Shown here one piece after another: positions 589 through 21,775 of a DNA stretch of 64,000 nt (position 1 is its first letter; each line of letters opens with the position of its first letter). The notes beneath the pieces were generated by a model. It searched no databases. It was not told the origin of the DNA and saw only the letters and a list, made by a program, of their open reading frames with translations. This stretch comes from Dehalococcoidia bacterium. Its GTDB lineage: Bacteria > Chloroflexota > Dehalococcoidia > Tepidiformales > Tepidiformaceae. The stretch is taken from assembly GCA_022827945.1 (NCBI GenBank), contig JAJEIT010000007.1:1-64000 (forward strand), given 5' to 3'. A program made the translations under genes and the position numbers.

Positions 589-631
589 ACCTCGGGGAGG
601 CGACGGCGCGCGGGCGCAGGCCGGAGTGAGG

Positions 632-1993
632 ATGGACATGCGGCGAATTGCCATCGTCGGCGGAGGCGTATCCGGGCTTGGCGCCGCCTGGGCGCTGAAC
701 CATCACCCCGATCGCTTCGACTTCCGGCTGTTCGAGGCCCAGGACCAGATCGGCGGGAACGCCATCACGGCCGACATGCCCCAGGGCGGTGGCGGCTCCG
801 TCCCCTTCGACATCTCCGTCACCGCCTGTATTCCCTCCATCTACCACCACATGGTGCTGCTGATGGAGCGCTTCGGCATCGACCTCGTCGATACCAGGTT
901 CAACTACAGCGTGAAGTACCAGGGCCGCCTCTACGCGCACGACTTCGACTCCGACATCCGGGAGCAGCTACAGCCCGAAATCGCGAAATTCCAGGGCCTC
1001 CTCAGGCGCCTGCACCGGATCGGCTGGCTGACCCGGGCACAGTCGAAATTCCTGAACGCCCTCAACCCATTCAACTACATAACCATGGGAACGGTGCTCA
1101 ACCTGGGCGGCTTCTCCGGGGACTTCCGCTACAAGGTCCTGAAGCCGATGTTCGTCAACTTCCTGATGGCGACGAACGTCTTCGACATGCCCGCCGCGCT
1201 CTTCTCGCGCTACCTCGAGTTCTTCGACATCGAGACCGCCACGCCCATGCAGACGTGGGACCAGGGCACCCGCCGCATCTACGAAGAGCTGTCGGCCGGC
1301 TTCCGCGACAAGATCTCGCTCAACCGGCCCGTCCGAAAGGTCTACCGGGAAAAGGGGCGCGTCGTCGTCGAGGACGCGGAAGGCGTGCGGGAGACGTTCG
1401 ATGACGTCATCTTCGCCTGCAACGCCAACCAGACCCTGATGCTCCTCGACCAACCCACCTTCCTTGAGCGCTCCATCCTCTCGTCGGTCCGCTACGAGAG
1501 CGAGCTTCACAACCACACGGTGGTCCACTCCGATGCCTCCGTCCTCCCAGACAACGAGACGCAGCCCCTCACGACGCGGAGCAACTACATCGAGCAGTAC
1601 GGCGCGAGGCCGGACAACTACGAGATCACCTACATCATGCACAACCAGCAGCCGTGGGCTCGGGAGTCCGACAAGCCCTGCCTCGTGACCTACAACCCGA
1701 TCAGCCCCATCGACGAAGGCAAGATCGTGAAGCGGTGGTGGTTCCAGCACATCGTCCACGACGTTCGCCACGTGGCGCTGACGGTCAACATCTTCCGCTT
1801 TGTCCAGGGCAGGCGGCGGACGTGGCACTGCGGAGCCCACACCCTCGTGAATGCCCAGGAGACCTGCTTCGTGACGGGCCTCGCCGCCGCCCGTCAGCTC
1901 GGTGCGGACTACCCGTTCGAGGACGAGGCCGCGAGGCGCTCATTCAACTACTACGGGAGCATCCTCTACGGCTGGCGATTCCGGAAGGCGTAG
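632..1993 (+). CDS. FAD/NAD(P)-binding oxidoreductase (amine-oxidase-like, COG2907 type)
   Basis: About 453 residues. The N-terminus carries a Rossmann dinucleotide-binding motif, IAIVGGGVSGLGAAWAL, followed by an acidic residue at the end of the second strand (LFEAQDQIGG), typical of FAD-dependent flavin amine oxidase/phytoene desaturase-like enzymes. The rest resembles the predicted NAD/FAD-binding proteins often found beside fatty-acid or lipid-modifying genes. Starts are possible at GTG 626, ATG 632 and ATG 638; GGAG at 623-626 favours ATG 632. The 3' end overlaps the convergent Rieske oxygenase gene by 54 bp. In this neighbourhood a role in oxidising or desaturating a polycyclic lipid is reasonable, but the substrate cannot be read from the sequence. 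Confidence 0.85.
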   Translation: MDMRRIAIVGGGVSGLGAAWALNHHPDRFDFRLFEAQDQIGGNAITADMPQGGGGSVPFDISVTACIPSIYHHMVLLMERFGIDLVDTRFNYSVKYQGRLYAHDFDSDIREQLQPEIAKFQGLLRRLHRIGWLTRAQSKFLNALNPFNYITMGTVLNLGGFSGDFRYKVLKPMFVNFLMATNVFDMPAALFSRYLEFFDIETATPMQTWDQGTRRIYEELSAGFRDKISLNRPVRKVYREKGRVVVEDAEGVRETFDDVIFACNANQTLMLLDQPTFLERSILSSVRYESELHNHTVVHSDASVLPDNETQPLTTRSNYIEQYGARPDNYEITYIMHNQQPWARESDKPCLVTYNPISPIDEGKIVKRWWFQHIVHDVRHVALTVNIFRFVQGRRRTWHCGAHTLVNAQETCFVTGLAAARQLGADYPFEDEAARRSFNYYGSILYGWRFRKA

Positions 1994-3070
1994 TTCCGCA
2001 TCCGGGTGTCGAACCGCCCGATCGAGTTCGGGCAGCGGATCTGCCGCGCCCGTCGGGGCGGGATAGAACTGGGTGCAGTAGTCCCGGAACATCATGATCT
2101 CCCCATCGGCACGATTGAGCCGCGGTCGTGGCCGGTATTGCTTGCGGCTCCAGATCACGACGTCCTGCAGCACGTCCATCTTCTGCATCGGGCCGATGAA
2201 CCGGTTGATGACGCCGGCGCGCAACCCATGCGGCAGAAAACCCGCTCCTGCGACGAACCGCTTCGGCCTGGGCCCCACCTTCACCTGGGACGCCAGCGAC
2301 ATGTCGATCAGGGTGCCGTCCACGGGAGTTGCCAGCACCCACAGGCGCATCTCCATGGGGATCGAGCGCTCCCGCACCTGCACGAAGGAGTAGCCCAGCC
2401 CGAAGATGCGGGCGTGGGCGGAGAAATCGAGTGTGAGCCTGGCGATCCCGGCGATCTTTCGGACCGTCCGGAAGTCCCAACGGCTCACCAGAAGGGTGCC
2501 CTCCACCTCGACCGGGTGCGTCCGGTCCACGTTGTCGTAGCCGTGCACGTAGCGCAGGTGGGCGATGTCCACCGAGTTCTCCGTGGTCTCCTGCGGGTGC
2601 CCGGGGAAGCGCAGGGTCTGGACGCGGAGGTCGCTCCAGCCTTCCTGGTCCACGGCCTCGTCCGGCACGCTCCACTGCGACGGCCGTCCCTCGATCCCCG
2701 ACCAGGCGAAGATCAGCCCGGCGATCTCTTGCGTCTCGAAGACTCGCAGCCTCGCCGATCGCGGCGGGGCGGCGAAAGGCGTGGCCACGCACTGCCCGGT
2801 GGCGTCGAACTCGAAGCCGTGGAAGGGACAGACCAGCCGGCCCTCGCAGACGCGTCCCCCCGCGGCCGGCCCGAGCTCGGACCCGAGGTGCGGGCAGACC
2901 GACTCGGCGACGCAGATGCGCCCGTCCTCGTCACACCAGGCGACGACCTGTTCGCCCATCCAGGTCTTCTGCATGAGCCCGGCCTGTTCGATGGCCTTGC
3001 GACTCTCGACGAAGTACCAGCCCTCGGGATACGGGGAGGGCAGCGCCGTCCGCTTCAGCTCGGTCTGCAT
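1940..3070 (-). CDS. Rieske non-heme iron oxygenase (Neverland/DAF-36 or sterol-demethylase-like)
   Basis: 376 residues. The Rieske [2Fe-2S] ligands are visible as CPH (C59, H61) and CPFHG (C81, H84). The mononuclear iron site is ENSVDIAHLRYVHG, with D168, H171 and H176 as bridging Asp and facial-triad His. The PYPEGW start and the ligand layout resemble oxygenases acting on sterols and steroids: Neverland/DAF-36 cholesterol 7-desaturase, KshA and bacterial SdmA. ATG 3070 was chosen because GGGGG lies about 10 bp upstream; the longer open frame to 3337 lacks family similarity. No ferredoxin or reductase partner is encoded nearby. It is divergent from the GPP34-P450 gene and overlaps the FAD gene tail-to-tail. 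Substrate assignment is inference from neighbours. Confidence 0.88.
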   Translation of the reverse strand: MQTELKRTALPSPYPEGWYFVESRKAIEQAGLMQKTWMGEQVVAWCDEDGRICVAESVCPHLGSELGPAAGGRVCEGRLVCPFHGFEFDATGQCVATPFAAPPRSARLRVFETQEIAGLIFAWSGIEGRPSQWSVPDEAVDQEGWSDLRVQTLRFPGHPQETTENSVDIAHLRYVHGYDNVDRTHPVEVEGTLLVSRWDFRTVRKIAGIARLTLDFSAHARIFGLGYSFVQVRERSIPMEMRLWVLATPVDGTLIDMSLASQVKVGPRPKRFVAGAGFLPHGLRAGVINRFIGPMQKMDVLQDVVIWSRKQYRPRPRLNRADGEIMMFRDYCTQFYPAPTGAADPLPELDRAVRHPDAELRLPESPAVEDAPVVVE

Positions 3071-3311: not shown

Positions 3312-5339
3312 ATGACACTCGCTGAAGCAGAACCCACGACTCAGACCCTGACCCTGACCGAGGAGCTCCTCTTGATGCTCCTCAACGAGGAGAGCGGCTA
3401 CTTCCACCAGGTACCCGGCTGGGACTTGAACTGCACCGTCGTGGGCGCTGTGCTCGCCGAACTGTCCCTCGCTTCTCGCATCGATACCGATGTGGAGTCG
3501 CTGATCCTGCTGGACAGCACCGAGACGGGTGACCCCATCCTGGACCCGATCCTGAAGGATATCGCCGCTGAGTCGGAGCAGCGCAACGCCCAGTACTGGA
3601 TCGAGCGGCTTGCTCCCCGGGCGGAGTCGATCATCGACCTCACGCTGGAGCGCCTGGTCGACCTGAAGATCCTGGAACACCACGATGGCGAATTCTGGAC
3701 CCTGTCCCGTACCGCCCGCCACGCGGATGTCTTCGGCGGGTCCGAAGACGGGACGGCTGCCGAGTTCGTCAGGACCCGTATCAGCAAGGTCATCTTCGAC
3801 AACGTGATTCCCGACCCCCGGGACGTCATCATCATCGCCCTCGTCAACGCGGTCGATGTTCTCCGCTTCATGTTCCAGCTGGATGACGAGACGGAAGAGC
3901 GGATCGAACTCATCTGCAGGCTCGATCTGATCGCCCGCGCCATCGTCGATGCCGTTGGCCAGACCGTTGCCGGCCCCCTGCTGCGCCGCCCCGCCCTGAC
4001 CAGGCAAATCCCCAGGGTGCCGATGCACAAGCTCATCCGCAATCGGAACGCCCGCAAGGGGAACCTTCCCGCCCTCTTTGCGGACCTTGCGAAAGAGTAC
4101 GGCCCCGTATTCGAGCTACGCCCGCCGTTCGTCGAGCCCATGATCTTCCTGGCCGGGCCCGAGACCAATCGCTGGGCCCACCGCCAGGGGCGTATGCACC
4201 TGAGGGCCAGGGACTACCTCAACGACTTCGAGAAGATCTACGGCGCTTCCGGAATCCTGCCCGCTCTCGACGGGGCCGACCACTTCCGCTTCCGCAAGGC
4301 CCTGCAGCCCGGCTACTCCCGCGCGCGCCTGGAAGGTCAGCTCGACAGCCTCTACCGCGACACCCGCGGGCACATGGCGACCTGGAATGTCGGAGAGTCC
4401 TATCCGGGCAGCGAATTTTGCCGCGCGCTGATCAACGCCGAGCTCTCACCCCTCATGATCAGTGTTGAGTCCCAGGATCTCATGGGCGACCTGATCAAGT
4501 TCAAAGAACGAGCGCTGATGACGCACCTCGTCAAGGTTCTGCCCAAGTTCCTGCTCAGCACGCCCGGGATGAAGCGCCACGCAGCCGCCATCGACACGTT
4601 GCTGGAGCGCGTCGAGACCGTGCATACCCCCGCCCAGCGGGCGGGGTGTCCTCGCGACCTCGCGGACGACCTGCTCAGCCTGCACGCCAGCGACCCCCAG
4701 TTCCTTCCCGGGTCGAACCTGCGGTTTGCGCTCTCCGCTCCCCTGATCGCCAGCGTGTACCTCGGTGATGGTCTGGCTTTCGCCCTCTACAACATGGCAA
4801 CGCACCCCGATCTCTACGAGCGGATCCGGCAGGAAGCCGACGCCCTGTTCGAGAACGGCGATCCGGAAGGCCGCGACATCAGCACGGACGTGATCGACAC
4901 CACGCACCGCCTCATCATGGAGTCCATGCGCATGTACCCCATCGTCCCGGTGTCGATTCGGAACGTGATGAACGCCTGCGTGGTGGAGGGTTACAACATC
5001 TCGGAGGGAACGCGGATCAACATCGCCCAGTCGGCCTCCCACTACATGGAGGACATTTTCCCTGACCCGTTCACGTTCGATATCGACCGCTACTTGCCGC
5101 CGCGGGATGAGCACCGTCATCCCGGCTACGCCCCGTACGGCCTCGGTACGCACACGTGCCTCGGATCCCGCTGGATGGAGCTGCAGCTGTCCATCAACCT
5201 GCTGATGCTCGCGCACTACTTCACGATCGAGGCGACCCCCTCGGAGGGTCAGGCGCCCATCAACCCGTTCCCCTCGCTCTCCCTCGGAGGCAAGGCGAAA
5301 TTCCACATCACCGAACAGCGCCGCGAGATCCCAGCCTGA
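3312..5339 (+). CDS. GPP34 (GOLPH3-like) - cytochrome P450 fusion protein
   Basis: 675 residues, two domains. Residues about 14-220 match the GPP34/GOLPH3 fold: TEELLLMLLNEESGYF start, W37 in VPGWDL, and IPDPRDVIIIALVNA around 166-180, regions used by eukaryotic members to bind phosphatidylinositol-4-phosphate. Residues about 233-670 are a P450: ExxR is E537-S-M-R540, and the heme loop PYGLGTHTCLGSRW places the axial thiolate at C616. By alignment the conserved I-helix acid/threonine region reads ASVYLGDG (about 480-487), so the usual Thr seems replaced by Tyr483. The P450 should oxidise a lipid; the GPP34 part may anchor it to membrane or lipid. The gene lies between Rieske and SMT-like genes, suggesting a sterol/triterpenoid substrate (inference). 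No redox partner is nearby. Confidence 0.9.
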   Translation: MTLAEAEPTTQTLTLTEELLLMLLNEESGYFHQVPGWDLNCTVVGAVLAELSLASRIDTDVESLILLDSTETGDPILDPILKDIAAESEQRNAQYWIERLAPRAESIIDLTLERLVDLKILEHHDGEFWTLSRTARHADVFGGSEDGTAAEFVRTRISKVIFDNVIPDPRDVIIIALVNAVDVLRFMFQLDDETEERIELICRLDLIARAIVDAVGQTVAGPLLRRPALTRQIPRVPMHKLIRNRNARKGNLPALFADLAKEYGPVFELRPPFVEPMIFLAGPETNRWAHRQGRMHLRARDYLNDFEKIYGASGILPALDGADHFRFRKALQPGYSRARLEGQLDSLYRDTRGHMATWNVGESYPGSEFCRALINAELSPLMISVESQDLMGDLIKFKERALMTHLVKVLPKFLLSTPGMKRHAAAIDTLLERVETVHTPAQRAGCPRDLADDLLSLHASDPQFLPGSNLRFALSAPLIASVYLGDGLAFALYNMATHPDLYERIRQEADALFENGDPEGRDISTDVIDTTHRLIMESMRMYPIVPVSIRNVMNACVVEGYNISEGTRINIAQSASHYMEDIFPDPFTFDIDRYLPPRDEHRHPGYAPYGLGTHTCLGSRWMELQLSINLLMLAHYFTIEATPSEGQAPINPFPSLSLGGKAKFHITEQRREIPA

Positions 5340-5415: not shown

Positions 5416-6450
5416 GTGCAGCTAAAGACACTCCTGAAAGAGTTGAACCGCTCCTACCGCGGCTCTGACGTCACGGGTCGCGTGCGAGACTTCGACAAGT
5501 GGACTGACCTCGCGGCGATGGGCGTTGATGGGTCGAGCGACTACTCCCACAGCCAGACGGCGAAGGAGTACTACGATTTGTGTACGCCGTTCATGGTCTG
5601 GGGCTGGGGCGAATCCCTGCACTTCGCACCACTTAGGCCCACCGAGAGCGTGGAGCAATCCCAAGCACGGCATCAGCGGCTGATGATGTCCAAGCTGGAA
5701 TTGCAGGAGGGCATGACCGTGATCGACGTTGGATGTGGAGTCGGCGGCCCAATGCGGCGGGTTGTACGTGAGGCTGGTGTTCGCGTTTCCGGAATCAACA
5801 TCAACGAAATCCAGTTGGCCATGGCAAAGCGGTTGACCGCTGAGGCGGGCCTCGACCATATGGTCGATTACGAGACGTGCAGTTTCATGGACATGAACGC
5901 CATACAGGACGGCGCTTTTGACCGGGGCTACGCCATCGAGTCAACCTGCCATGCGCCAGACAAGCAAGGCGCATTCGCCGAGATCTTCCGGGTCCTGAAG
6001 CCCGGAGCCCTCTTCTGGGGACAGGAGATGTGTCTGACGGAGAGGTTCGATCCGAACGACAACCGCCACAAGACCATCAAGCAAGAGCTCATGCACGGTA
6101 TTGCGCTGAACGACATCGCGACGTTTGCGGAAGTGAATCACGCGCTTGAAGCGGTTGGGTTCGAGGTCATCGAAGGTGTGGACCGGGATGTCCAGGAAGG
6201 ACCATCCACCCCCTGGTATCAGCCCATGGAGAGCCGGAAGGGAACGCTGGAGGGCGCCTTGCGCAGGCTCCCATGGGGCCGCAGAGCGATGATCGCAGGA
6301 CTAAAGCTGACCGAAGCGGTGCGGCTGTTTCCGGCGGGCTCTGCGGAAGTCGTCCGGCTGTTGGATCGGACCGCTGATGCCTACGTCGCAGGCGGTAAGA
6401 CGGGAATCTTCACACCGCTCTACTGTTTTCTGGCTCGAAAGCCCCTCTAG
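5416..6450 (+). CDS. Sterol C-24 methyltransferase-like SAM methyltransferase
   Basis: 344 residues, GTG start with GGAG 11 bp upstream. The SAM motif is VIDVGCGVGGPMR (102-114). Several signatures are those of Erg6/SMT rather than generic methyltransferases: the GWGESLHFAP block (63-72), YAIESTCHAPD (172-182), PWYQP (266-270) and the C-terminal GGKTGIFTP with FLARKP (326-343), i.e. a complete sterol-MT C-terminal domain. SMTs transfer methyl to C-24 of a sterol side chain. The related tocopherol methyltransferases lack the C-terminal block. Codon use is clearly less GC-rich at third positions than in neighbours (many TTG, GTT, GGA, CAA), suggesting transfer. It follows the P450 by 76 bp and converges with the RND exporter 10 bp away. 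Activity on sterols is a family-based inference. Confidence 0.88.
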   Translation: MQLKTLLKELNRSYRGSDVTGRVRDFDKWTDLAAMGVDGSSDYSHSQTAKEYYDLCTPFMVWGWGESLHFAPLRPTESVEQSQARHQRLMMSKLELQEGMTVIDVGCGVGGPMRRVVREAGVRVSGININEIQLAMAKRLTAEAGLDHMVDYETCSFMDMNAIQDGAFDRGYAIESTCHAPDKQGAFAEIFRVLKPGALFWGQEMCLTERFDPNDNRHKTIKQELMHGIALNDIATFAEVNHALEAVGFEVIEGVDRDVQEGPSTPWYQPMESRKGTLEGALRRLPWGRRAMIAGLKLTEAVRLFPAGSAEVVRLLDRTADAYVAGGKTGIFTPLYCFLARKPL

Positions 6451-6460
6451 CCCCTGGCGC

Positions 6461-8947
6461 CTACGACGACGAGTCCTGCCGCTGCTCGTACTGCTCGTGC
6501 ACGCCCTCGATCGCTTCGTCCAGCTCTTCCCACACCCGCTCGACCATCGAACGGAGCCGCATGTTCTGATACGCGCCCCAGACGGTCATCGCCGGCGGCA
6601 CCAGCAGGATGGACACGATCAGCGCGTACGCGATCGTGATCGCCGCTGTGATGCCGAACTCCTGCGAGGCGAGCGTAGGCGAAAGCACCAGCGCTCCAAG
6701 TCCGAGGGCTGTCGTCAGCGCCGACCCGAGCAGCGCCGAACCCGTCGTCGCCAGCGTGCGGATTGCCGCCTGCTCGGGATTTCGCAGGTGGGCGAACTCC
6801 TCCCGGTAGCGATGAATCACGTGGATCGTGTAGTCGACCCCGATTCCGATCGAAAGCGCCGTGATGATCGCCGTGACCAGCGTGTAGGGAATGCCGATCA
6901 GGGCCATCGTGCCCAGTACCCAGATGAGCACGAACACAACCGGCGCCACCGCGATGAAGGCCAGCACCGGCTGCCGGAGGGTGACCCAGAAGAAGATCGC
7001 GAGGATGCCGAACGCCATCGCGATGGTCGTGCTGATCGCCTCGGTCTGGCGCCCGGTGATCTCGTCCGTGACCGCGATGGAGACGATGCTTCCGGACGTG
7101 GCCGTGACCGTACCGTCTTCGCCGAACCAGAGGGCCTCGAGGTCCTCCTGGAGCGCTCTCGTCGTATCCGGATCACCCGAGTAGGCGGGGAACTGGACCA
7201 GCAGTGAGTCGATACCGTCGGGATTGTCGACCAACGCATGGGCGACGGCAGGGTCCATCTCCCTGAGCCTGTCGAGGAACTCCTGCAAGAGCTCGGGATC
7301 GAATTCCACCCCCGCCGAAGCCTCGCGGAAGAGCGCCGCCAGCTCTGGGTCATAGTTGTCGCCCGGCTCCCCGCTATCCGTGGTCCAGTCGCGAACGATC
7401 AGCTCATATGACATCTGGATGGGGCCTGCCGCCGCCCGGGGACGGCGCTCCGGATCTTCGAAGGCCTCCCTCAGGTCGTGGAGGTTCAGGTACGTGCGGG
7501 TTTCCGTTGCTTCCGCGCTTACCAGGACCGTGACCATCTCCGTCGAACCTCCGACGGCCGTCTCGAGAGTCTCGATGTCCTCCAGGACGGTGCCGACCCG
7601 GGGCAGGATGTCGCGGATGTCGAAGCCCGATTCGAGCCTGGTCGCAGCGAATCCGAGACCGACGGTGATCGCCAGCACGACGATGAAGTAGGGCGCAGGC
7701 TGGCGCGCCACCGATGTCCCCAGTACCTCGGCGAGGCGTCCGATTCCCGGCAGTGCGGCGGAGACCGGTCGGGGCGGCGTCAGCTTGCCCCGTGACTCGC
7801 GCCGCCGGTCGATGATCGTTCGTGCGGCCGGGATCAGCGTGAGCATGACGATCAGGCTCAACCCGACACCCAGAGCCGCGACGATGCCGAAGTCCCTTAC
7901 CACGGAGATCGGTGAGAACAGGTTCGCCAGGAGGCTCACGATGGTCGTGACGGCCGCCAGCACGAGCGGAATCGTGACGTTCCGCAATCCCGTCCTGACT
8001 GCGTCCACCACCGAGGTGCCGGCAGTCCGCTGCTCGCGGTAGTGCGAGACGGCCTGGATGGCGTAGTCCACCGTGAGGCTGATCACGATGATCGGGACCA
8101 TTGCCGTGAGCGAGCTCGGCGGGCCGATGAGGCCGAGCGCGTCCGGCCCCAGCCAGCCTTCCGCGCCGATGACCCAGATCAGGGAGATCAGCAATCCCGC
8201 CAGCGTGAGCAGGAGGTCGGAGAGCGTGCGCAGGAACACCAGGATCAGGGCGAGAATCAGGACCAGCGCCAGCCCGATGAGCGGCACCATCCCCTCTTCC
8301 GTGGCCTTCTTGTACTCGTCCTCGATCACCACGGGCGAGACGCTGCTCACCCGCAGCGGACCTTCGTCGTCGGCCGCCAGCTCATTGATCGACCGTTCAG
8401 CTTCCTGGATGCGCTCGTCGCCGGTGTCGATCAGCCTGATGGTGGCGATCGCGACGGCCGTGCCGTCCTCATCGGTTCCGGTCATCTCGGCAAGCGCCGC
8501 CGCGATTTCGGGCACGCTGCGGGCGGACTCGATCTCCGCCTGCGTGACCGACTCGAAGCTGTCCGTCTGGAGCACCGATCCGAGCAGGAACGTGGGCGCG
8601 ACGACCGCATCGCCGGGCGCCAACAAGCCACCGATCGCCGGGTCGCCGAGGATGCCGTCCACCAGGGCGTCCATCTGTGAGAGCCCGTCGGGCGTGAATG
8701 CCTCTCCCCGGAAGACGAGGGTCACGACTCGGACGTCGCCCGACTCCGAGAAGAGCTCGTCGATCTCGTTGATCGCATCGGCAACGTCGTTCCCGGGGGG
8801 AAGAAACGCCAGCGCCGCGCCCTCGATCACTTCCGCGCGCCGTCCCGCTCCCAGGGCCAGCACGACCGTAATGATGAGGAGGATGGCGATCGTGATATAC
8901 GGGCGAACGGTGACCAGCCAGCTCAGCCTCTCGAGAACACGGCTCAT
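6461..8947 (-). CDS. RND/MMPL family transporter (HpnN-like lipid exporter)
   Basis: 828 residues with the duplicated RND/MMPL architecture: N-terminal TM (about 17-34), large periplasmic loop, a TM bundle at about 220-375, a second loop, and a second bundle at about 625-785. The proton-relay aspartates sit in matching sites, D294 in LTVDYAIQ and D705 in IGVDYTIH. Such single-polypeptide RND proteins move lipids; HpnN (hopanoids) and MmpL (mycolate glycolipids) are examples. The hydrophilic C-terminal tail is rich in Glu and Gln. It converges on the SMT-like gene with a 10-bp gap. Export of the locus's modified lipid is the natural guess, but not shown. No Shine-Dalgarno precedes ATG 8947; a -10-like hexamer lies 8 bp upstream. 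Confidence 0.9.
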   Translation of the reverse strand: MSRVLERLSWLVTVRPYITIAILLIITVVLALGAGRRAEVIEGAALAFLPPGNDVADAINEIDELFSESGDVRVVTLVFRGEAFTPDGLSQMDALVDGILGDPAIGGLLAPGDAVVAPTFLLGSVLQTDSFESVTQAEIESARSVPEIAAALAEMTGTDEDGTAVAIATIRLIDTGDERIQEAERSINELAADDEGPLRVSSVSPVVIEDEYKKATEEGMVPLIGLALVLILALILVFLRTLSDLLLTLAGLLISLIWVIGAEGWLGPDALGLIGPPSSLTAMVPIIVISLTVDYAIQAVSHYREQRTAGTSVVDAVRTGLRNVTIPLVLAAVTTIVSLLANLFSPISVVRDFGIVAALGVGLSLIVMLTLIPAARTIIDRRRESRGKLTPPRPVSAALPGIGRLAEVLGTSVARQPAPYFIVVLAITVGLGFAATRLESGFDIRDILPRVGTVLEDIETLETAVGGSTEMVTVLVSAEATETRTYLNLHDLREAFEDPERRPRAAAGPIQMSYELIVRDWTTDSGEPGDNYDPELAALFREASAGVEFDPELLQEFLDRLREMDPAVAHALVDNPDGIDSLLVQFPAYSGDPDTTRALQEDLEALWFGEDGTVTATSGSIVSIAVTDEITGRQTEAISTTIAMAFGILAIFFWVTLRQPVLAFIAVAPVVFVLIWVLGTMALIGIPYTLVTAIITALSIGIGVDYTIHVIHRYREEFAHLRNPEQAAIRTLATTGSALLGSALTTALGLGALVLSPTLASQEFGITAAITIAYALIVSILLVPPAMTVWGAYQNMRLRSMVERVWEELDEAIEGVHEQYEQRQDSSS

Positions 8948-9142: not shown

Positions 9143-11389
9143 ATGAGCAGCGAACCGTATTTCCAGGGTCATATCGGGCGATACACGAGCGAGTCGACGC
9201 CGTGGTGGCCCGAGCCGCCGAAGCCGGCCCCGGGCAGCCCCAACGTCGTCTTCGTCATGCTCGACGACGTCGGGTTCGGCCACCTTGGGTGCTACGGCTC
9301 CTCGATCGATACGCCCAACATGGACCGGCTCGCGGCCAACGGGCTTCGCTACCGCAACTTCCATACCACCACCATCTGCTCGCCGTCGCGCGCCTGCCTG
9401 CTGACCGGACGGAATCACCACTCCGTCGGCATGCGCACCATCTCCAACTACGACACCGGCTTCCCCAGCGCGCGCGGCGCCATCTCGCCCAGCGCCGCCA
9501 CGATCGCGCAGATGCTCCAGCAGACCGGCTACAACACGGCCGCCTTCGGCAAATGGCACCTCGCCCCCATGGCCGACGGCTCCGCCGTGGGGCCATTCAG
9601 CGGCTGGCCCCTGGGCAAAGGCTTCGAGCGCTACTACGGTTTCCTCGACGCGCTCACCGACCAGTTCGCCCCCGAGCTCATCCTTGACAACCGCCACATC
9701 CCCTCGCCCTCCGACCCGGACTATCACCTGAGCGAGGCCATCGTCGACGAGGCCATCGAGTTCGTCCGCGATCAGACCTCGCTTTCGACCAGCCCCTTCT
9801 TCCTGTACGTCGCCTTCGGGGCCTGCCACTCGCCCCACCAGGCCCCGCAGGAGTACCTCGACAAGTATCGCGGCAAGTTCGACCAGGGGTGGGATGCCAC
9901 GCGTGAGGCCTGGTTCCAGCGGCAGCTCGAGCTCGGCATCGTCCCCGAAGGGACGCAGTTGGCCCCGCGCAATAACGGTGTCCCCGCCTGGGACGACCTC
10001 TCCGAGGACGAGAGAGCCGTGCGCGCCCGCCTGCAGGAGGCGTTCGCGGCCATGCTCGACCACATGGACCACCAGATCGGACGCATCGCCGACTACCTTG
10101 AGGCGATCGACCAGCTCGACAACACCCTCTTCGTTGTCGTCTCGGACAACGGCGCCAGCCAGGAGGGCGGCCCTCTCGGCGTCTTCAACGAGGGCCGGTT
10201 CTACAACCAGATTCCGGCCGACGAGGGCTACAACCAGGCCAACATCGACGAGATCGGCGGACCCAGGTCCCACACGAACTACCCGTGGGGCTGGGCGCAG
10301 GTGGGGAACACGCCCCTGAAGCGGTACAAGCAGAACACCCACGGCGGCGGCATCCGTGACCCGCTCATCATCCACTGGCCCGATCGCATCAAGGATGCGG
10401 GGGCGATCCGTCCCCAGTTCCACCACATCTCGGACATCGTGCCCACGGTGCTGGAAGTGCTCGGGGTCGAGGCGCCGGAGATGCATCAGGGTGTTCCCCA
10501 GCTCCCCATCCACGGCACGAGCATGCTCTACACGTTCGACTCCGGCGACGAGCCGACGCGCAAGCGCAACCAGCACTTCGAGATGTTCGGCCACCGCGGC
10601 ATCTGGCACGACGGCTGGAAGGCCGTCACCTTCCACGCGCCGGGGACCACCTTCGAGGAGGATGTGTGGGAGCTCTACCACCTCGATGAGGACTTCTCCG
10701 AGTGCAACGACCTCGCCGAGTCCGAGCCGGAGAAGCTCAAGGAGATGATCGAGCACTGGTGGATCGAGGCGGCCAAGTACGACGTGCTGCCGCTCGAAGA
10801 CGGGCTCCGCGGAGCACGGGGCACGCCGCCCAAGAAGGGCTCTCCCCAGGACCGCACGAGCTTCGTCTACCGCCAGGGCATGGCTCACACGCCGACGAAC
10901 GCCGCCGCCGACGTCCGCAACCGCGACTACACCATCACCGTCGAGCTGACGCGCCAGAGCGAGGCGGACGAGGGCGTGCTCATCGCGCACGGCGGGATCA
11001 CCGGCGGCTATTCCCTGTTCATCAAGGACAACCGCCTGGTGCACGAGTACAGCTACGTCGGCGAGCGTTACCGCATCGTCTCCGACACGGCGGTTCCGAT
11101 CGGCGAGTCCGTGGTGACGCTCGACTTCACCAAGACTGGCGAGCTGCAGGGATCTGCCGTCCTCACGATCAACGGCCGCCAGGTGGGGAGCGGAGATCTG
11201 CCCGCGACCCTCGGCGGCATGTTCGCGATCGAGGGTCTCGATGTCGGGCAGGACCTGTATACGCCCGTGAGCGAGGACTACGAGGTGCCGTTTGCCTTCC
11301 CCGGCGTGATCGCCGCGGTGCGCATCGAGCTCGGGTCGCAGACCCTCGATCGCGAGGCGGAGCTGCGGGGCCGCGTCATCGCCCAGTAG
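9143..11389 (+). CDS. Arylsulfatase (formylglycine-dependent, S1 family)
   Basis: 748 residues. Hydrolyses sulfate esters; belongs to the alkaline-phosphatase superfamily. The N-terminal metal site is visible in NVVFVMLDDVGFG (D41, D42). The formylglycine motif is CSPSRACLLTGR, with C79 as the residue converted by FGE. GKWHL, and VSDNGASQEGG with metal-binding D-N, follow further down. Beyond about residue 530 there is an extra ~200-residue C-terminal region, predicted beta-rich, common in long arylsulfatases. No signal peptide is evident, so it may be cytoplasmic; the FGE gene nearby supplies activation. Downstream lies the TSUP exporter, which could remove sulfite or related anions. Substrate unknown. 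Confidence 0.93.
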   Translation: MSSEPYFQGHIGRYTSESTPWWPEPPKPAPGSPNVVFVMLDDVGFGHLGCYGSSIDTPNMDRLAANGLRYRNFHTTTICSPSRACLLTGRNHHSVGMRTISNYDTGFPSARGAISPSAATIAQMLQQTGYNTAAFGKWHLAPMADGSAVGPFSGWPLGKGFERYYGFLDALTDQFAPELILDNRHIPSPSDPDYHLSEAIVDEAIEFVRDQTSLSTSPFFLYVAFGACHSPHQAPQEYLDKYRGKFDQGWDATREAWFQRQLELGIVPEGTQLAPRNNGVPAWDDLSEDERAVRARLQEAFAAMLDHMDHQIGRIADYLEAIDQLDNTLFVVVSDNGASQEGGPLGVFNEGRFYNQIPADEGYNQANIDEIGGPRSHTNYPWGWAQVGNTPLKRYKQNTHGGGIRDPLIIHWPDRIKDAGAIRPQFHHISDIVPTVLEVLGVEAPEMHQGVPQLPIHGTSMLYTFDSGDEPTRKRNQHFEMFGHRGIWHDGWKAVTFHAPGTTFEEDVWELYHLDEDFSECNDLAESEPEKLKEMIEHWWIEAAKYDVLPLEDGLRGARGTPPKKGSPQDRTSFVYRQGMAHTPTNAAADVRNRDYTITVELTRQSEADEGVLIAHGGITGGYSLFIKDNRLVHEYSYVGERYRIVSDTAVPIGESVVTLDFTKTGELQGSAVLTINGRQVGSGDLPATLGGMFAIEGLDVGQDLYTPVSEDYEVPFAFPGVIAAVRIELGSQTLDREAELRGRVIAQ

Positions 11390-11508
11390 CGGAAGTAGCC
11401 GGGGCGGCGGGGGTATCGTGCGGTTGTGACCCGCCTGCGCCGTTTGTCCGCTGCGTTGTTCGGTAGCAGGGTCGACCGTGCCGGACAGCGCGTGGCAGGG
11501 AGCCCGAC

Positions 11509-12336
11509 GTGCTAGAGGCGGTCCTCCTCGTCCTGCTTGGGCTCGGTGTGGGCGTCTTCGGCGCGATCATCGGCGCCGGAGGGGGCTTCCTCCTCGTCCC
11601 CATCCTGCTGCTCGCTTACCCCGACCGCGACCCCGCCACGGTTACGGCCATCTCGCTCGCCGCCGTCTTTGCCAACGCGACCTCCGGCGCCATCGCCTAC
11701 GCCTACCAGAAGCGCATCGACTTCCGCAGCGGTATCTGGTGGGCGCTGGCCGCCATCCCGGGCGCGCTGGGCGGCGCGCTGCTCGTGGGGATACTCCCGC
11801 GGGACGTCTTCGTGGTGGTGTTCGCGGTGGCGCTGGCGGGTGTTGCGACGCATCTCATCCTGCGCCGCGAGGCCACCGTCCTGCGCGAACCGATCACGGG
11901 TCGCGGGGCGATCTCCCGCCGCATCAGGGATCGCGAAGGGCAGAACTTCTTCTACACCTTCCGCCTCTGGCACGGCCTCTCGATCGCCGGGACGATGGGG
12001 TTCGTCTCCGGCCTGCTGGGGGCCGGCGGCGGCGTTCTCCAGGTGCCGCTCCTGACGATCGTCCTGCGCTTCCCCGTCCACATCGCGACCGCCACCAGCC
12101 AGTTCGCCTACGCGCTCATCGCCCTCGAGGCGACGGTCGTGCACGCCGTGACCGGCGGCCTCCACCTGGATGAGCACCTCCTCGAGGCAGGGTTCATCGC
12201 CATCGGCGCCGTCGTCGGCGCCCAGGCCGGCGCCCGCGTCGCCTCGAGGGTCCGCGGCGCCGTCATCCTGCGAGTCCTCTCGACGACGCTGCTGCTGGTG
12301 GTGGCGTGGCTCGTGGTGGACACGTTCGTCCGCTAG
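11509..12336 (+). CDS. TSUP family transporter (TauE/SafE-like sulfite/anion exporter)
   Basis: 275 residues, GTG start with GGGAG 5 bp upstream. Two repeats of four hydrophobic segments, each containing the family's glycine-rich turn: GAIIGAGGGFLLVP near the N-terminus and GLLGAGGGVLQVP near residue 170, diagnostic of the sulfite exporter TauE/SafE family. Members export sulfite, sulfoacetate or other organosulfur anions, or act as permeases. Its place between a sulfatase and FGE suggests handling of sulfur released from sulfate esters. It converges with the FGE gene with a 15-bp gap. Confidence 0.9.
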   Translation: MLEAVLLVLLGLGVGVFGAIIGAGGGFLLVPILLLAYPDRDPATVTAISLAAVFANATSGAIAYAYQKRIDFRSGIWWALAAIPGALGGALLVGILPRDVFVVVFAVALAGVATHLILRREATVLREPITGRGAISRRIRDREGQNFFYTFRLWHGLSIAGTMGFVSGLLGAGGGVLQVPLLTIVLRFPVHIATATSQFAYALIALEATVVHAVTGGLHLDEHLLEAGFIAIGAVVGAQAGARVASRVRGAVILRVLSTTLLLVVAWLVVDTFVR

Positions 12337-12351
12337 CGCCGGTGCCCTGCC

Positions 12352-13377
12352 CTACAGGTCCCGGACGCAGCGGAAGCCGGAGTTGGCCGTCGACGAGTCC
12401 GGCGTGTTGCCGGTGCGCGCCGCTACCCGGTAGCGGTTGCAGTACGACACATGACACAGGAACGACCCGCCCCGCTGCACACGATGCGTGCCCGTGGGCG
12501 GCCCGGTGGGGTTGTCGCGCGTGGCTGCGTCCTCCTGCCGGTGGTAGTCCGGGCTGAACCAGTCGGCGGTCCACTCCCAGACATTCCCCGAGCAGTTGTA
12601 GAGCCCGTAGCCGTTCGGCTCGAAGCTGTCGACGGGAGAGGTTCCCGTGAAGCCGTCGGCGCCCGTGTCGTGGTCGGGGAAGGTTCCCTGCCAGATGTTG
12701 CAGCGATGCTCCCCGCCCGGCTCCAGCTCGTCGCCCCACGGGTAGACGGCCTGCTCGAGCCCGCCCCGGGCGGCGTACTCCCACTCCGCTTCGGTCGGGA
12801 GGCGGGCGCCGGCCCACTCGCAGTACGCCTGCGCGTCGTTCCACGAGACGTGCACGGCGGGGTGCTGCTCGCGGCCGCGGAGATCGCGGCCGGGGCCTTC
12901 CGGCAGGTCCCAGCGTGCGCCGGGCACGGCCAGCCACCAGGGGGCCTGCACGACTGCGTTCGTCTTCTCCAGGCGCCGCGCCATCTGTCGTGAGAGGTGT
13001 TGCCGGAAGACGAACGACCACCCGAAGCGCTCAGCCTCGGTCACGTAGTCGGTGGCCTCGACGAAGGCCGCGAACTGGGCGTTCGTGACGGCGTGCACGT
13101 CAATGGCGAACGGCTTGAGCGTCACCTCGCGTACCGGCCCCTCGCCGTCTTGATCGGGTTGGCCGTTCGGCGGCGCGCCCATCAGGAAGGCGCCACCCGG
13201 CAGCTCGACTGCACCGTTGCTGGACGGTGCGGGCTCGGGCCGGATGCCGGCCGTTTCGGCGCGCCGGCTCGACCGCTCGGCCTCCCCGGGCGCGGAGTCG
13301 GACCGCGATGGCGCCCAGGAGGTCGTGCTGGGCGTGCAGCAGGCGTCTCCCGGTTCGTGCGTCACCCGCTCCTCCAA
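12352..13377 (-). CDS. Formylglycine-generating enzyme (FGE, sulfatase-modifying factor)
   Basis: 341 residues. Copper-dependent oxidase that converts the Cys of CxPxR in sulfatases to formylglycine. The FGE-sulfatase fold is clear: GGAFLMGAP (61-69), HPAVHVSWNDAQAYCEWAG (172-190), RLPTEAEWEYAARGG (192-206), NVWEWTADW, and RGGSFLCHVSYCNRYRVAAR. The last contains the two active-site cysteines C308 and C313, spaced five apart as in known FGE. An N-terminal DACCTPS stretch is typical of bacterial FGE. TTG 13377 is the longest start; a GTG a few codons in is also possible. Both sulfatases in the window carry CxPxR, so they are its likely clients. Confidence 0.94.
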   Translation of the reverse strand: MEERVTHEPGDACCTPSTTSWAPSRSDSAPGEAERSSRRAETAGIRPEPAPSSNGAVELPGGAFLMGAPPNGQPDQDGEGPVREVTLKPFAIDVHAVTNAQFAAFVEATDYVTEAERFGWSFVFRQHLSRQMARRLEKTNAVVQAPWWLAVPGARWDLPEGPGRDLRGREQHPAVHVSWNDAQAYCEWAGARLPTEAEWEYAARGGLEQAVYPWGDELEPGGEHRCNIWQGTFPDHDTGADGFTGTSPVDSFEPNGYGLYNCSGNVWEWTADWFSPDYHRQEDAATRDNPTGPPTGTHRVQRGGSFLCHVSYCNRYRVAARTGNTPDSSTANSGFRCVRDL

Positions 13378-13422
13378 CCCGCCGGCTGCGCCGGCGGCTG
13401 CGACCGTGGGCGCTTGGTGTCG

Positions 13423-13428
13423 TAGAAT
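13423..13428 (+). promoter_or_regulatory. -10 hexamer TAGAAT upstream of the Dpp-type binding protein
   Basis: TAGAAT lies about 80 bp before ATG 13507 and points toward the importer operon. The gene itself has a strong GGAGG about 7 bp before its start. No recognisable -35. Confidence 0.35.
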
Positions 13429-13506
13429 CCCGCCACTCCACTGTCCCGGTCAAGGGATGTGGGAACCGGAGTCCAGGCAGGCATCGGCCTGCAGGAGGGA
13501 TGACTC

Positions 13507-15225
13507 ATGACCTATCTGAAGGATCGAAAGATTAGCCGCCGGGCCCTGCTGGCCGGGAGCGGCGCGGCAGCGGCAGGCCTCGGGGCGGCAGCCCTGGTGG
13601 GCTGCGGCGATGACGACGACGACGCGCCCGCCCCCGCCGCGACACAGGCTGCGGCGACCGAGGCCGCCGCGACCGAAGCTGCCGCCACCGAGGCTGCAGC
13701 GACCGAAGCCGCCGCCACCGAGGCTGCGGCCACCGAAGCCGCCGAGGCGGCTGCCACCGAGGCGCCCGCCGCAGGCGGCCCCCAGACCGGCGGTACCCTC
13801 CGCGGCTCCGCTCCGACGTTCATCTGGAACACGGGTTTCCCGTACTCCTTCACCTGGGAGAACGAGCCCTACTTCTCGGTCCTCGAGCCGCTCGTCCGCT
13901 ACCGCGACAGCCTCGATCCGTTTCCGGTGCTCGCTGAGCGCTTCGAGTACAACGACGACCGCAGCAAGCTGACCGTCACCCTGAAACCCGACCTCGAGTT
14001 CCACGACGGCTCGCCCGTCACGACCGACGACGTGTTCCACGGCATCGAGGTCATGCTCGACCCCGAGCCCTGGGGCATCACCGGCGTTTTCCAGATCAGC
14101 TCCTTCGCGGCAGCGCTCACGCGCTGGGAGGCGGTCGACTCTCGCACCATGGAGTTCGAGTTCGACAAGCCTCGCCCCAACATGACCGACTTCTTTGCCC
14201 AGCTTCTCGTGACGAAGAAGGACACCTACCGGGAGTTGCAGGAAGGCACGAACATTCAGGGCACCGGGCCGTTCGCCTTCGAGCAGTGGACCCCTGACGT
14301 CGGCGCGAGTTTCGTCGCGAACCGCGGCTGGCATCAGAGCGCCGTGGAGGGCGGTCCCTACGTCGATCGTATCGAGCTGCAGAACTTCCCCGATGCGGAG
14401 TCGCTGGGCCTCGCCCTTGAGGCGGGCGATATCGACTGGTCGCTCGGCGTGGCGCCCTCGGTCGCCAGGCGCACGGGCCAGGGCTTCCTCGCCCCGAAGG
14501 CCGGCATCGTCTACGTCGGCTGTGTCACAAACAGCCCCAAGCTGGTGGACCCGCGCGTGCGCCAGGCGCTCCTCTACGCCATTGACCGCAGGCGCATGAC
14601 GGAAGAGCTGCGCGAGGGCTTCGGTGACCTCACGGCACAGCCGTGGCCGAGCTCCTCGCCCGCTTTCGACCCCGACCTCGAGAGCGAGCTCTACGAGCCC
14701 GACCGCTCCCGCGCCATCCTCGACGAGGCTGGCTGGTCGCAGGACGAGCCCTTGATGATCGAACCCATCCCGGGCACGGAAGTCACCGCCGAGATCCTGA
14801 AGAGCAACTTCGCGGACATTGGCGTGGACGTCGAGATCGTCACGCAGGAGATTGGCGCCTGGGTCGGCAAGCTGCGGCAGCGCGGCTTCGTCGACCTGTG
14901 GGTCGCGCCCCACAAGTTCTCCAATCTCTCGCCGCTCACCACCATGCAGCAGACGTTCCCGTATCGCATGGGGAATCCGAGCTACTACGAGACGGAGACC
15001 TACCTCGACATCATCGCCAACCTCGAGCGGTTGGACCCGCTCGGCGAAGAGGCGAGGGAGCAGTACGCCCGCTTCAACCGGATGTGGCTCGAAGACCCCT
15101 GGCTCCTGCCGGTCCACACGAACCAGCGAATCGAGGTGGCCAACGCCAACGTGAAGGGGTACGACGAGCACTTCGTGACGATCTTCGAGCAGCCGAATCT
15201 GGCGAAGGTTTGGCTCGAGGGGTAA
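13507..15225 (+). CDS. ABC transporter substrate-binding lipoprotein (SBP_bac_5, Dpp/Opp type)
   Basis: 572 residues. The N-terminus has a twin arginine (SRRALLAG, R11-R12), a hydrophobic stretch and a lipobox ALVGC with C33 as the lipidated residue, so it is probably a Tat-exported lipoprotein. C33 is followed by an acidic run and the (AATEA)n linker at about 45-87. The mature domain shows the family-5 pattern: SVLEPLVRY, LKPDLEFHDGSPVTTDDV, and GTGPFAFEQW. Family members bind peptides, nickel chelates, sugars or other amphiphiles. GGAGG precedes the ATG. It heads an operon with two permeases; the ATPases are absent, so they must be encoded elsewhere. Confidence 0.93.
   Translation: MTYLKDRKISRRALLAGSGAAAAGLGAAALVGCGDDDDDAPAPAATQAAATEAAATEAAATEAAATEAAATEAAATEAAEAAATEAPAAGGPQTGGTLRGSAPTFIWNTGFPYSFTWENEPYFSVLEPLVRYRDSLDPFPVLAERFEYNDDRSKLTVTLKPDLEFHDGSPVTTDDVFHGIEVMLDPEPWGITGVFQISSFAAALTRWEAVDSRTMEFEFDKPRPNMTDFFAQLLVTKKDTYRELQEGTNIQGTGPFAFEQWTPDVGASFVANRGWHQSAVEGGPYVDRIELQNFPDAESLGLALEAGDIDWSLGVAPSVARRTGQGFLAPKAGIVYVGCVTNSPKLVDPRVRQALLYAIDRRRMTEELREGFGDLTAQPWPSSSPAFDPDLESELYEPDRSRAILDEAGWSQDEPLMIEPIPGTEVTAEILKSNFADIGVDVEIVTQEIGAWVGKLRQRGFVDLWVAPHKFSNLSPLTTMQQTFPYRMGNPSYYETETYLDIIANLERLDPLGEEAREQYARFNRMWLEDPWLLPVHTNQRIEVANANVKGYDEHFVTIFEQPNLAKVWLEG
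13639..13767 (+). repeat. In-frame 15-bp tandem repeats encoding (AATEA)n
   Basis: About seven copies of a GC-rich 15-bp unit encode an Ala-Ala-Thr-Glu-Ala repeat between the lipidated Cys and the ligand-binding domain. One unit near the end is imperfect (AEAAATEAPA). It looks like a flexible linker lifting the binding domain from the membrane, and it is prone to copy-number change. Confidence 0.85.
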
Positions 15226-15228
15226 ACC

Positions 15229-16173
15229 TTGCTCGCCTACGTCCTCGCCCGCGTTCTGCAGGCGGTTCCCGTTCTTGTGCTGGCGAGCATCGGGGTCTTC
15301 CTGATGCTCCGGCTCGTCCCCGGGGACCCTGCAGAACTCCTGGCGGGCCAAGACGCCACCCAGGAGGATGTCGACCGGCTCCGGGGCCAGCTGGGCCTTG
15401 ACGACTCGCTCCCCGAGCAGTACATCAGCTGGCTCGGGGACATCTTCCAGGGCGACCTCGGCGTCTCCTTCGCCCGCGGCCTCCCCGTCACCCGCATGCT
15501 CCGCACGGCCATCCCGCCGACGCTGGAGCTGACGGTCGCCGCCTACGTCGTCGCCGTCGTTGTCGGCATACCCCTGGGGATCCTGGGAGGTATCCGTCCC
15601 CGCTCGGGGTGGGACTGGTTGCTCTCCGGCTACACCCTCGTGACGATCGGCATCCCCGGGTTCCTCTTCGGCATCATCATGCTCTGGATATTCAGCGTCA
15701 GGCTGGATTGGTTTCCCACGTTTGGCGAGGTGTCCATCCTCGACGACCCCGTGGAGTCGCTCCGCCACCTCACCCTGCCCGCGCTCGCAACGGGGGTCGG
15801 GGTGGCGGCAGTCCTCGCTCGCTACACGCGCACCACCATTTCCGAGGTTATGGGCAACGACTTCGTCCGTACCGCGCGGGCGAAGGGGCTTGCCGAGAGC
15901 CGCGTCGTGGTCCGCCACGCCCTGCGGAACTCCATGATCCCGGTTGTGACGGTCATGGCCCTGCAGGTCGGAGGGCTGCTCGGGGGCGCCGTGATCGTTG
16001 AGCAGGTCTTCACTCGCCCCGGACTCGGCCGGTTGATGGTGAACGCCATCCAGGCCCGCGACTACCTCGTCGTCCAGAGCACGCTCATCATCCTCGTGTC
16101 GGTGTTCATCACCGCCAACCTCGCTGCGGACATCGCCTACGGCTTCCTCGACCCCAGGGTGCGCGGACGATGA
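15229..16173 (+). CDS. ABC transporter permease, DppB/OppB type
   Basis: 314 residues, TTG start 3 bp after the binding-protein stop. An N-terminal TM (VLARVLQAVPVLVLASIGVF) and the extracytoplasmic LVPGDPAELLAGQ segment are typical of DppB. Five further hydrophobic segments follow. The EAA loop that docks to the ATPase is seen in NDFVRTARAKGLAESRVVVRHALRNS. It forms the pore with the next gene, whose ATG overlaps this stop codon. The ligand is not known. Confidence 0.93.
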   Translation: MLAYVLARVLQAVPVLVLASIGVFLMLRLVPGDPAELLAGQDATQEDVDRLRGQLGLDDSLPEQYISWLGDIFQGDLGVSFARGLPVTRMLRTAIPPTLELTVAAYVVAVVVGIPLGILGGIRPRSGWDWLLSGYTLVTIGIPGFLFGIIMLWIFSVRLDWFPTFGEVSILDDPVESLRHLTLPALATGVGVAAVLARYTRTTISEVMGNDFVRTARAKGLAESRVVVRHALRNSMIPVVTVMALQVGGLLGGAVIVEQVFTRPGLGRLMVNAIQARDYLVVQSTLIILVSVFITANLAADIAYGFLDPRVRGR

Positions 16174-17072
16174 GCGCGGCCCAGATGGACGCCGAGCTTC
16201 AGCTCTCCTGGTGGGGACGCAAGACCCGCGAGTCCCTGCTCTTCGCCACCATCAACGGCATCATCCACAACCCCCAGGGCGCCATCGCCATCGTCGGGCT
16301 TGTGTTGCTGGTTGTCGGGGCCGTTGGCGCGCCCCTCATCGCCCAGCACGACCCCATCGCCCAGGATGCCGCCGGGCGCTTCCTCTCTCCCTCCACGGAA
16401 CACTGGTTCGGCACCGACGAGCTCCGCCGTGACCTGTTCTCGCGCACGCTCTTCGGGCTGCGCGCCTCCTTCGCGGTGAGCCTGATCAGCGTAGCCGTTG
16501 GCACGGCCATTGGCGTGACAGTCGGTTTCCTCGCCGGCTTCCTCGGCGGGCTTGCCGAAGCTGCTGCCATGCGCATCGTCGATGCCTTGCTCGCGTTCCC
16601 CGGCCTGCTTGCCGCCCTGGCCATCCTCAACATCCTGGGGCCCGGCGTGAGGAGCATCGGCATCGCGATCGCGTTCTTCACGATCCCCGCCTTCGCGAGG
16701 CTGGCGCGCGCCCAGATGCTCGCCGAGAAGAACAAGGACTACGTCCTCGCCTCCCAGGCGCTGGGCGCCAGTCCGCAACGCATCATCTTCCGCCACATCG
16801 CCATCAACGCATTCCCGCCCCTCCTCACGCAGATGGCGCTGCTGATGGCGGTGGCCGTGCTCATCACCGCCGCTCTCAGCTTCCTCGGGCTGGGCGACAA
16901 CCCGCCCGCGCCCTCGCTGGGCGGCCTCCTGAACGTCAGCCGCCAGTACCTGCGCGAGGCCTGGTGGTACGCCGTCTGCCCCGGAGCTGTCTTTGCCCTG
17001 CTCCTCTTCTGCCTGAACCTCCTCTCCGACGCCATCAACGAAGCATCGAGCCCGTACCAGAGGCGTCGATGA
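16170..17072 (+). CDS. ABC transporter permease, DppC/OppC type
   Basis: 300 residues; ATG overlaps the preceding stop (ATGA). It has an N-terminal TM at about 35-55, the family's periplasmic GTDELRRDLFSRTLFGLRAS element, and an EAA loop in DYVLASQALGASPQRIIFRHIAINAF. It pairs with the DppB-type permease. The gene after it is a sulfatase, not the DppD/DppF ATPases that normally follow, so this importer depends on ATPases encoded elsewhere. Confidence 0.93.
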   Translation: MSAAQMDAELQLSWWGRKTRESLLFATINGIIHNPQGAIAIVGLVLLVVGAVGAPLIAQHDPIAQDAAGRFLSPSTEHWFGTDELRRDLFSRTLFGLRASFAVSLISVAVGTAIGVTVGFLAGFLGGLAEAAAMRIVDALLAFPGLLAALAILNILGPGVRSIGIAIAFFTIPAFARLARAQMLAEKNKDYVLASQALGASPQRIIFRHIAINAFPPLLTQMALLMAVAVLITAALSFLGLGDNPPAPSLGGLLNVSRQYLREAWWYAVCPGAVFALLLFCLNLLSDAINEASSPYQRRR

Positions 17073-17120
17073 CGGCCATCATGCCGATGGAGCGCCCGCA
17101 TACCCCAGGAGGAACATCCC

Positions 17121-20270: not shown

Positions 20271-20501
20271 ATGTCGAAGATGATACAGATCCGGAACGTG
20301 CCCGATGACGTGCATCGGGAGGCGAAGGTGCGCGCCGCCCGCGCCGGCATGACCCTCTCCGCCTACCTGCTGCGCCAGATCGAGCGTGCCCTTGAGGTGC
20401 CCGACATCGAGGATCTGATGGAGCGAATAGGGTCGCTGGAGCGTATCCGGACTACCGAGACTGCTGCTGAGATCATTCGGGCGGAACGTGACGCGCGGTG
20501 A
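20271..20501 (+). CDS. FitA/VapB-like ribbon-helix-helix antitoxin
   Basis: 76 residues. MSKMIQIRNVPDDVHREAKV followed by RAARAGMTLSAYLLRQIERA is the classic beta-strand/helix/helix of FitA-type Arc/MetJ repressors. The C-terminal acidic and helical part would wrap the toxin. A longer open frame runs back into amt, but ATG 20271 sits correctly after the promoter and operator. The stop overlaps the toxin's GTG start (GTGA), so the two are translationally coupled. It neutralises the PIN toxin and probably autoregulates through the palindrome at 20239-20255. Confidence 0.9.
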   Translation: MSKMIQIRNVPDDVHREAKVRAARAGMTLSAYLLRQIERALEVPDIEDLMERIGSLERIRTTETAAEIIRAERDAR

Positions 20502-20908: not shown

Positions 20909-21011
20909 CTCCCCGCCCCGTCAGGCCGCTTACACCAGCGTCCACCGGCGCCCCCGAACCCATTCGGGCTGGCCGTGTAGCATGGGCGCGTCAGGGAGGC
21001 GCTAGACCGTA

Positions 21012-21668: not shown

Positions 21669-21775
21669 GGAAGGGGCAGCCCACGACCACGCCGCGGGAC
21701 GAGCTGATCGACCACTGGCTCCGGGAAGAGCAGGAGCCGTTCACCGGCTGGGACTTCTCCCATCTCCACGGCCGC

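Follow-up and report, generated by a model that had tools for sequence, protein, structure and literature searches.

A widespread bacterial fusion of a GPP34 (GOLPH3-like) domain to a cytochrome P450, with a probable role in the alteration of sponge sterols by symbionts

The window (the whole stretch of 64,000 nucleotides that was analysed) encodes a single chain in which a GPP34 (GOLPH3-like) domain is followed by a cytochrome P450 (Table 1). Both parts are recognised by Pfam: GPP34 (PF05719) matches residues 15-216 with E 2.1e-32 and 113 bits against a cut-off of 29.1, and p450 (PF00067) matches residues 408-658 with E 4e-37, far over its curated cut-off. The whole-protein model (mean pLDDT 78, from a 56-sequence alignment) displayed a helical N-terminal domain and a P450 starting around residue 229.

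Table 1. Coordinates of the fusion gene, its domains and motifs, and the related genes of the window
Feature	Position	Strand	Remarks
FAD amine-oxidase-like oxidoreductase	626..1993	+	conserved neighbour
Rieske oxygenase, KshA-type C-terminal domain	1940..3070	-	divergent from fusion; start inferred from homologues, listed ORF to 3337
GPP34-cytochrome P450 fusion gene	3312..5339	+	675 aa, ATG start
GPP34 (GOLPH3-like) domain	3354..3959	+	residues 15-216; Pfam and predicted fold
W37	3420..3422	+	invariant; probable GOLPH3 W81 counterpart, register ambiguous between alignments
V44	3441..3443	+	at GOLPH3 PI4P contact R90; not conserved
E105	3624..3626	+	at PI4P contact R171; E/D in 80/80 loci
I108	3633..3635	+	at PI4P contact R174; I/V in 80/80 loci
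Predicted beta-hairpin 121-131 with F128/W129	3672..3704	+	site of GOLPH3 membrane-inserting hairpin
Interdomain linker	3960..3995	+	residues ~217-228; low pLDDT at 220-228
Cytochrome P450 domain	3996..5324	+	residues ~229-671; Pfam and fold search
I-helix residues 480-486, ASVYLGD	4749..4769	+	replaces [AG]Gx[DE]T
ExxR motif E537-R540	4920..4931	+	motif alignment
Heme-binding loop APYGLGTHTCLG with Cys616	5130..5165	+	motif alignment
Sterol C-24 methyltransferase-like gene (SMT)	5416..6450	+	Sterol_MT_C; WGWGESLHFAP; 76 bases downstream of fusion
MMPL/HpnN-like RND transporter	6461..8947	-	sterol-sensing-domain profile match
Stand-alone GPP34 protein, 218 aa	21012..21668	+	often in same genomes as fusion

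When 84,980 species genomes were scanned with the fusion alignment, 249 loci encoding relatives came up, and the best 80 were fetched. All of these (best 80 of 249) are long fusions with 63-72% identity. None of the 80 aligned sequences has an internal stop that splits the domains, and all of them keep E537, R540 and C616, which bears out the P450 with ExxR motif and heme Cys616 that the first-pass annotation had seen in the C-terminal part. That annotation had also likened the N-terminal part to the stand-alone GPP34 protein of the window, and the two are in fact 43% identical, besides the GPP34 profile match given above. Its remark that no characterised protein of this kind was known agrees with our literature search, the scope of which is short of most subscription journals and in which no description of a GPP34-P450 protein was found. 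In one MAG the fusion ORF (L248:5760-7783) is frameshifted within the GPP34 part. A sequencing or assembly artefact was ruled out, since the fusion is present in many independent MAGs. The analysis thus confirmed that the fusion is real and widespread and, as far as the searched literature goes, undescribed.

Within the genus of the window, the fusion was found in six congeners: five have it in full length (67-73% identity), and in the sixth (G031) it is a fragment at a contig end. According to record titles, the loci extend over at least eight phyla (Chloroflexota, Gemmatimonadota, Pseudomonadota, Nitrospirota, Latescibacterota, Binatota, Actinomycetota, and Verrucomicrobiota), and spot checks confirmed both Pfam domains in records of Verrucomicrobiota, Gemmatimonadota, Nitrospirota, and Actinomycetota. 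The fusion gene tree presents 14 phylum changes against a minimum of 7, and for Chloroflexota its starred branches require four changes or more. As the phyla are mixed in this tree, the gene has probably moved horizontally; single phylum placements are unsure because MAG bins can hold foreign contigs. No fusion match appeared among 50,697 phage records or viral contigs, and no plasmid record reached 80% coverage of the fusion query. In the plasmid search, a sister fusion matched P450s and the stand-alone GPP34 matched GPP34 proteins. Concerning the habitat, many of the isolate names (RHO, COS, IRC, APA, SB066x, and MPM bins) look like those of sponge MAGs; this link from bin name to host is an interpretation, and sponge species that fit the names are given by Robbins et al. 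(PMC8163846). Moreover, four congener genomes contain stretches identical to records of this apparent sponge type, which makes a sponge-associated lineage of Chloroflexota the most likely identity of the window's genus.

The genes around the fusion point to steroid chemistry, a setting that the first-pass annotation did not bring up, as it did not bring up the spread among sponge symbionts or the altered I-helix. The neighbouring SMT carries Sterol_MT_C (PF08498, E 5.4e-17) and a WGWG motif, and the nearest solved relatives of the Rieske protein are 3-ketosteroid 9alpha-hydroxylases. In the best 80 of 249 loci the Rieske gene recurs in 61, the FAD gene in 51, SMT in 49, and the MMPL gene in 40. 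SMT lies within 1 kb of the fusion in 44 of these 80, with a median gap of 57 bp, and around 40% of them have no SMT inside the fetched flank. Since the orientation of SMT varies among these loci, this is a gene neighbourhood and not a fixed operon. Further along the window (9143-18644), near the sterol genes, there are sulfatases (9143 and 17121), an FGE-type sulfatase-modifying gene (12352), and a TauE/SafE exporter.

The P450 and the KshA-like Rieske oxygenase could also be thought to open a pathway in which host sterols are degraded as a carbon source. The KshA-type neighbour would suit this function, as would the many P450s in the genome of the window (34 matches in 2.85 Mb, which is unusually many). 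Nevertheless, catabolism is highly unlikely: the fusion associates with a biosynthetic SMT, and full ring catabolism was rejected after its single marker, an HsaC/BphC-type ring-cleaving dioxygenase, gave no match over cut-off in nine congeners.

The distribution of sterol genes bears on the origin of the substrate. In the genus, the fusion and SMT occur together in seven genomes, and both are missing from G028 and G035. Among 54 fusion genomes, SMT was called at E 1e-40 in 39 (leaving 15 without it) and an oxidosqualene cyclase (OSC) ortholog in 11 (one by a fragment); for the 21 high-quality Chloroflexota fusion genomes the figures are 18 and 3. The counts of OSC absence are inflated by MAG incompleteness, but the difference between SMT and OSC is not easily explained by such gaps. 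As most fusion genomes lack OSC, an exogenous sterol is the likelier substrate.

Some of these bacteria do carry genes for making sterols. Three congeners (loci L090, L091, and L092) possess a distinct cluster for de novo sterol synthesis with a squalene epoxidase-oxidosqualene cyclase fusion of 1115 aa (L092:6229-9573 and its counterparts in L090 and L091), CYP51 (E 1e-100), SdmA (405 bits), SdmB (294 bits), and a second SMT, with SdmA and SdmB under the strict cut-offs of NCBIfam. In the window's genome the ORF of the cyclase is shorter and has no epoxidase part. This genome also has a second copy of the fusion (L064:9102-10790, C74), which is 52% identical, is missing the first half or so of the GPP34 domain and is divergent from a 2,3-oxidosqualene cyclase gene. 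Three Nitrospirota loci bring the fusion, OSC, and a CYP51-type P450 together in a span of about 10 kb. These arrangements, in which the fusion or its paralogue adjoins OSC, together with the congeners that hold the complete cluster, would fit a step of de novo synthesis on self-made sterols, for instance C-14 demethylation by an alternative enzyme or desaturation of the side chain. Such a role is unlikely, given the 11 of 54 genomes with OSC, its absence from the congeners G030, G031, and G034, and the true CYP51 (E 1e-100) found alongside the fusion, by which C-14 demethylation is already covered.

No OSC or CYP51 was found among the genes scanned around the fusion of the window, and the two cyclase genes of its genome are located on other contigs. 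The steroid gene clusters of Ircinia symbionts (PMC9531527) are comparable in that they come from sponge symbionts of ten phyla, with horizontal transfer and often with SMT. However, their core is ERG24-CYP51-LSS and GPP34 is unmentioned, whereas the fusion genomes are mostly without OSC and the fusion of the window has no OSC or CYP51 among its scanned neighbours, unlike the Ircinia-type arrangement (adjacent OSC, CYP51, and sterol reductase). The C-24 sterol methyltransferases described from sponge symbionts (PMC10070321), some of which yield 24-isopropyl sterols in vitro, are related to this locus through its SMT, but P450 is absent from the main text of that work and a GPP34 partner is undescribed.

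Since the full-length fold search listed P450s only, the GPP34 part was put through modelling and fold search on its own. Its AlphaFold model (pLDDT 83) matched GOLPH3 9qpq (COPI leaf) with Z 19.9 and Vps74 3kn1 with Z 17.7, GOLPH3/Vps74 structures as a whole giving Z 16-20 and the next best unrelated fold Z 4.8 or lower. In human GOLPH3, PI4P is contacted by W81, R90, R171, and R174 (PMC4414131), to which N172 has been added (PMC12494035). When these residues were mapped by profile alignment to human GOLPH3, the positions of R90, R171, and R174 were V/I/A/G, E/D, and I/V across the best 80 of 249 loci, non-basic in every one. The first-pass annotation had proposed W37 and R170 as residues of the PI4P pocket. 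W37 may indeed be the counterpart of W81, with a register that is ambiguous, but R170, while invariant, corresponds to no published contact. The fusion shares with the eukaryotic PI4P effectors GOLPH3 and Vps74 the fold and the profile, with a hairpin predicted at the corresponding place, and differs from them in having V/E/I in place of the basic contacts, in the attached P450 and in a bacterial setting without a coatomer context. Another bacterial GPP34 protein, SCO4440 of Streptomyces coelicolor, is stand-alone, tied to cell-wall changes and without a P450, and GOLPH3-like proteins were stated in that work to be previously undescribed in prokaryotes (PMC12402492).

These results divide the earlier idea that the P450 is tethered to membrane lipids. 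Since three of the four human contacts are replaced, phosphoinositide binding, and with it PI4P reading by this domain, is not supported by the alignment. Tethering itself is plausible from the models, considering the GOLPH3-like fold and the hairpin predicted from strands 121-124 and 128-131, in which F128 and W129 are near-invariant in the 80 loci (best 80 of 249). In GOLPH3 the hairpin inserts into membranes and also mediates dimerisation (PMC12494035). The GPP34 domain would be placed as the N-terminal membrane anchor of microsomal P450s is, just ahead of a proline-containing hinge (IPRVP), and its hairpin probably docks the enzyme to the cytoplasmic face of the membrane, beside a substrate dissolved in it.

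The same domain could act as an oligomerisation or partner-docking module and not as a tether, for example with the stand-alone GPP34, and this would be compatible with a sterol substrate. The dimerisation of GOLPH3 through its hairpin (PMC12494035), the lost PI4P contacts and the stand-alone GPP34 present in 24 of 25 fusion carriers (among 400 Chloroflexota genomes, kinship not corrected) speak for it. We regard it as rather doubtful, since the stand-alone protein was found in 24 of 32 genomes from named loci overall and in none of the Nitrospirota fusion genomes. An obligate pairing, strong in Chloroflexota, fails in Nitrospirota and was rejected. In the window the stand-alone gene is flanked by a PIN-domain gene on one side and a methyltransferase-like gene on the other (20498-22447).

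Regarding the P450 part, the fold search gave Foldseek E 5.8e-16 and VIA Z 32.9. The domain ranks with CYP184A1, CYP46A1, and CYP51 (VIA Z 32-33), a ranking (Z 31-33) that does not set sterol P450s apart from fatty-acid P450s, CYP184A1 and BM3 having like ranks. These enzymes have in common with the fusion the P450 fold, the ExxR motif and the heme cysteine; they differ in their 13-22% identity to it, in matched chains without GPP34, and, for CYP51, in an I-helix that keeps AGxHT. Identity with CYP51 itself was rejected: the fusion matches the CYP51 profile with E 4e-26 only, against E 1e-100 for the true CYP51 of the congener locus L092, its I-helix is different, and congeners have a separate true CYP51. 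The CYP51-ferredoxin fusion of Methylococcus is likewise a bacterial sterol P450 with a second domain, which is there a ferredoxin (electron donor) and here an N-terminal GPP34.

The canonical motif of oxygen-activating monooxygenases, [AG]Gx[DE]T, is absent from the fusion P450. The I-helix of the sterol-linked subfamily reads AS[VM]Y-LGD, one residue shorter than the canonical form; S481, Y483, G485, and D486 are present in all of the best 80 of 249 loci and L484 in 78. Some P450s with unusual chemistry are known to have lost the usual acid-alcohol pair. With this pair lost from the I-helix, a non-standard reaction is worth considering here, and it may be substrate-assisted, peroxide-driven or a desaturation or rearrangement.

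The same genomes, and others too, contain more distant GPP34-P450 fusions (~30-42% identity). Their I-helix is mostly AGxDT-like with the threonine (AGADTS in L244, VGLDTT in L234), and L240 has an intermediate form, AGHY-LGS. In L234, L236, L239, L244, L245, and L249 the distant fusion is directly followed by an acyltransferase-like gene, which in L244, the only one tested, is MdoC-like (NCBIfam). As sister fusions of ~33% identity are often beside an acyltransferase, the members of the GPP34-P450 group are not necessarily sterol enzymes. A Planktothrix plasmid carries a triterpenoid cluster (L250:2096-12496) in which an SHC-type cyclase and squalene synthase are accompanied by several P450s and a cupin protein. 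One of these P450s is a free-standing relative of the P450s of the sister fusions, with GGMETA in the I-helix. A supposed split GPP34 beside this P450 was actually a truncated second (tandem) P450, and a supposed GPP34-P450 in the same-family locus L041 was a stand-alone P450 of 433 aa.

It might be asked whether the P450 modifies hopanoids or other lipids, its sterol neighbours being incidental. SHC-like cyclases are common in fusion genomes, the MMPL neighbour resembles HpnN, and sister subfamilies adjoin an MdoC-like acyltransferase. This reading is very improbable, because G028 and G035 have a squalene-hopene-type cyclase and neither the fusion nor SMT, and because the methyltransferase neighbour has Sterol_MT_C.

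The explanation that we prefer, with about even confidence, is a peripheral-membrane cytochrome P450 with sterols as substrates, belonging to a mobile module for sterol modification in sponge symbionts. The fusion itself, its conservation and distribution, its neighbours and the lost residues are observed; membrane docking, the sterol substrate and its origin in the host, and an unusual chemistry are inferred from them. Its partners in the module would be the C-24 SMT, the KshA-like Rieske oxygenase, and the FAD oxidoreductase, together with the MMPL-type transporter in many Chloroflexota, and the usual substrate is probably a sterol from the sponge or from the food of the sponge. The fusion would then probably be an undescribed step in the alteration of sponge sterols by symbionts. 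A bolder version is rather doubtful: a mobile multi-phylum symbiont module would employ a new class of P450 to remodel the sterols of the host, and this enzyme, docked by a GOLPH3 domain no longer reading PI4P and with a near-invariant Y-L-G-D in place of the oxygen-activation motif, would catalyse a step that may concern the side chain, either ahead of C-24 methylation or following it.

Bacteria would here use a lipid adaptor domain of Golgi type as an enzyme carrier, and the P450 attached to it is a natural one that lacks the usual proton-relay residues. Furthermore, it is of consequence where the unusual sterols of sponges (24-isopropyl, 26-methyl) come from, since in fossil form they serve as the earliest animal biomarkers, and symbiont methyltransferases able to make the 24-isopropyl side chain have been described (PMC10070321). 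Found beside such methyltransferases in many symbiont phyla, the fusion is a direct candidate for another sterol step and offers a specific, testable gene for the processing of sponge sterols by symbionts.
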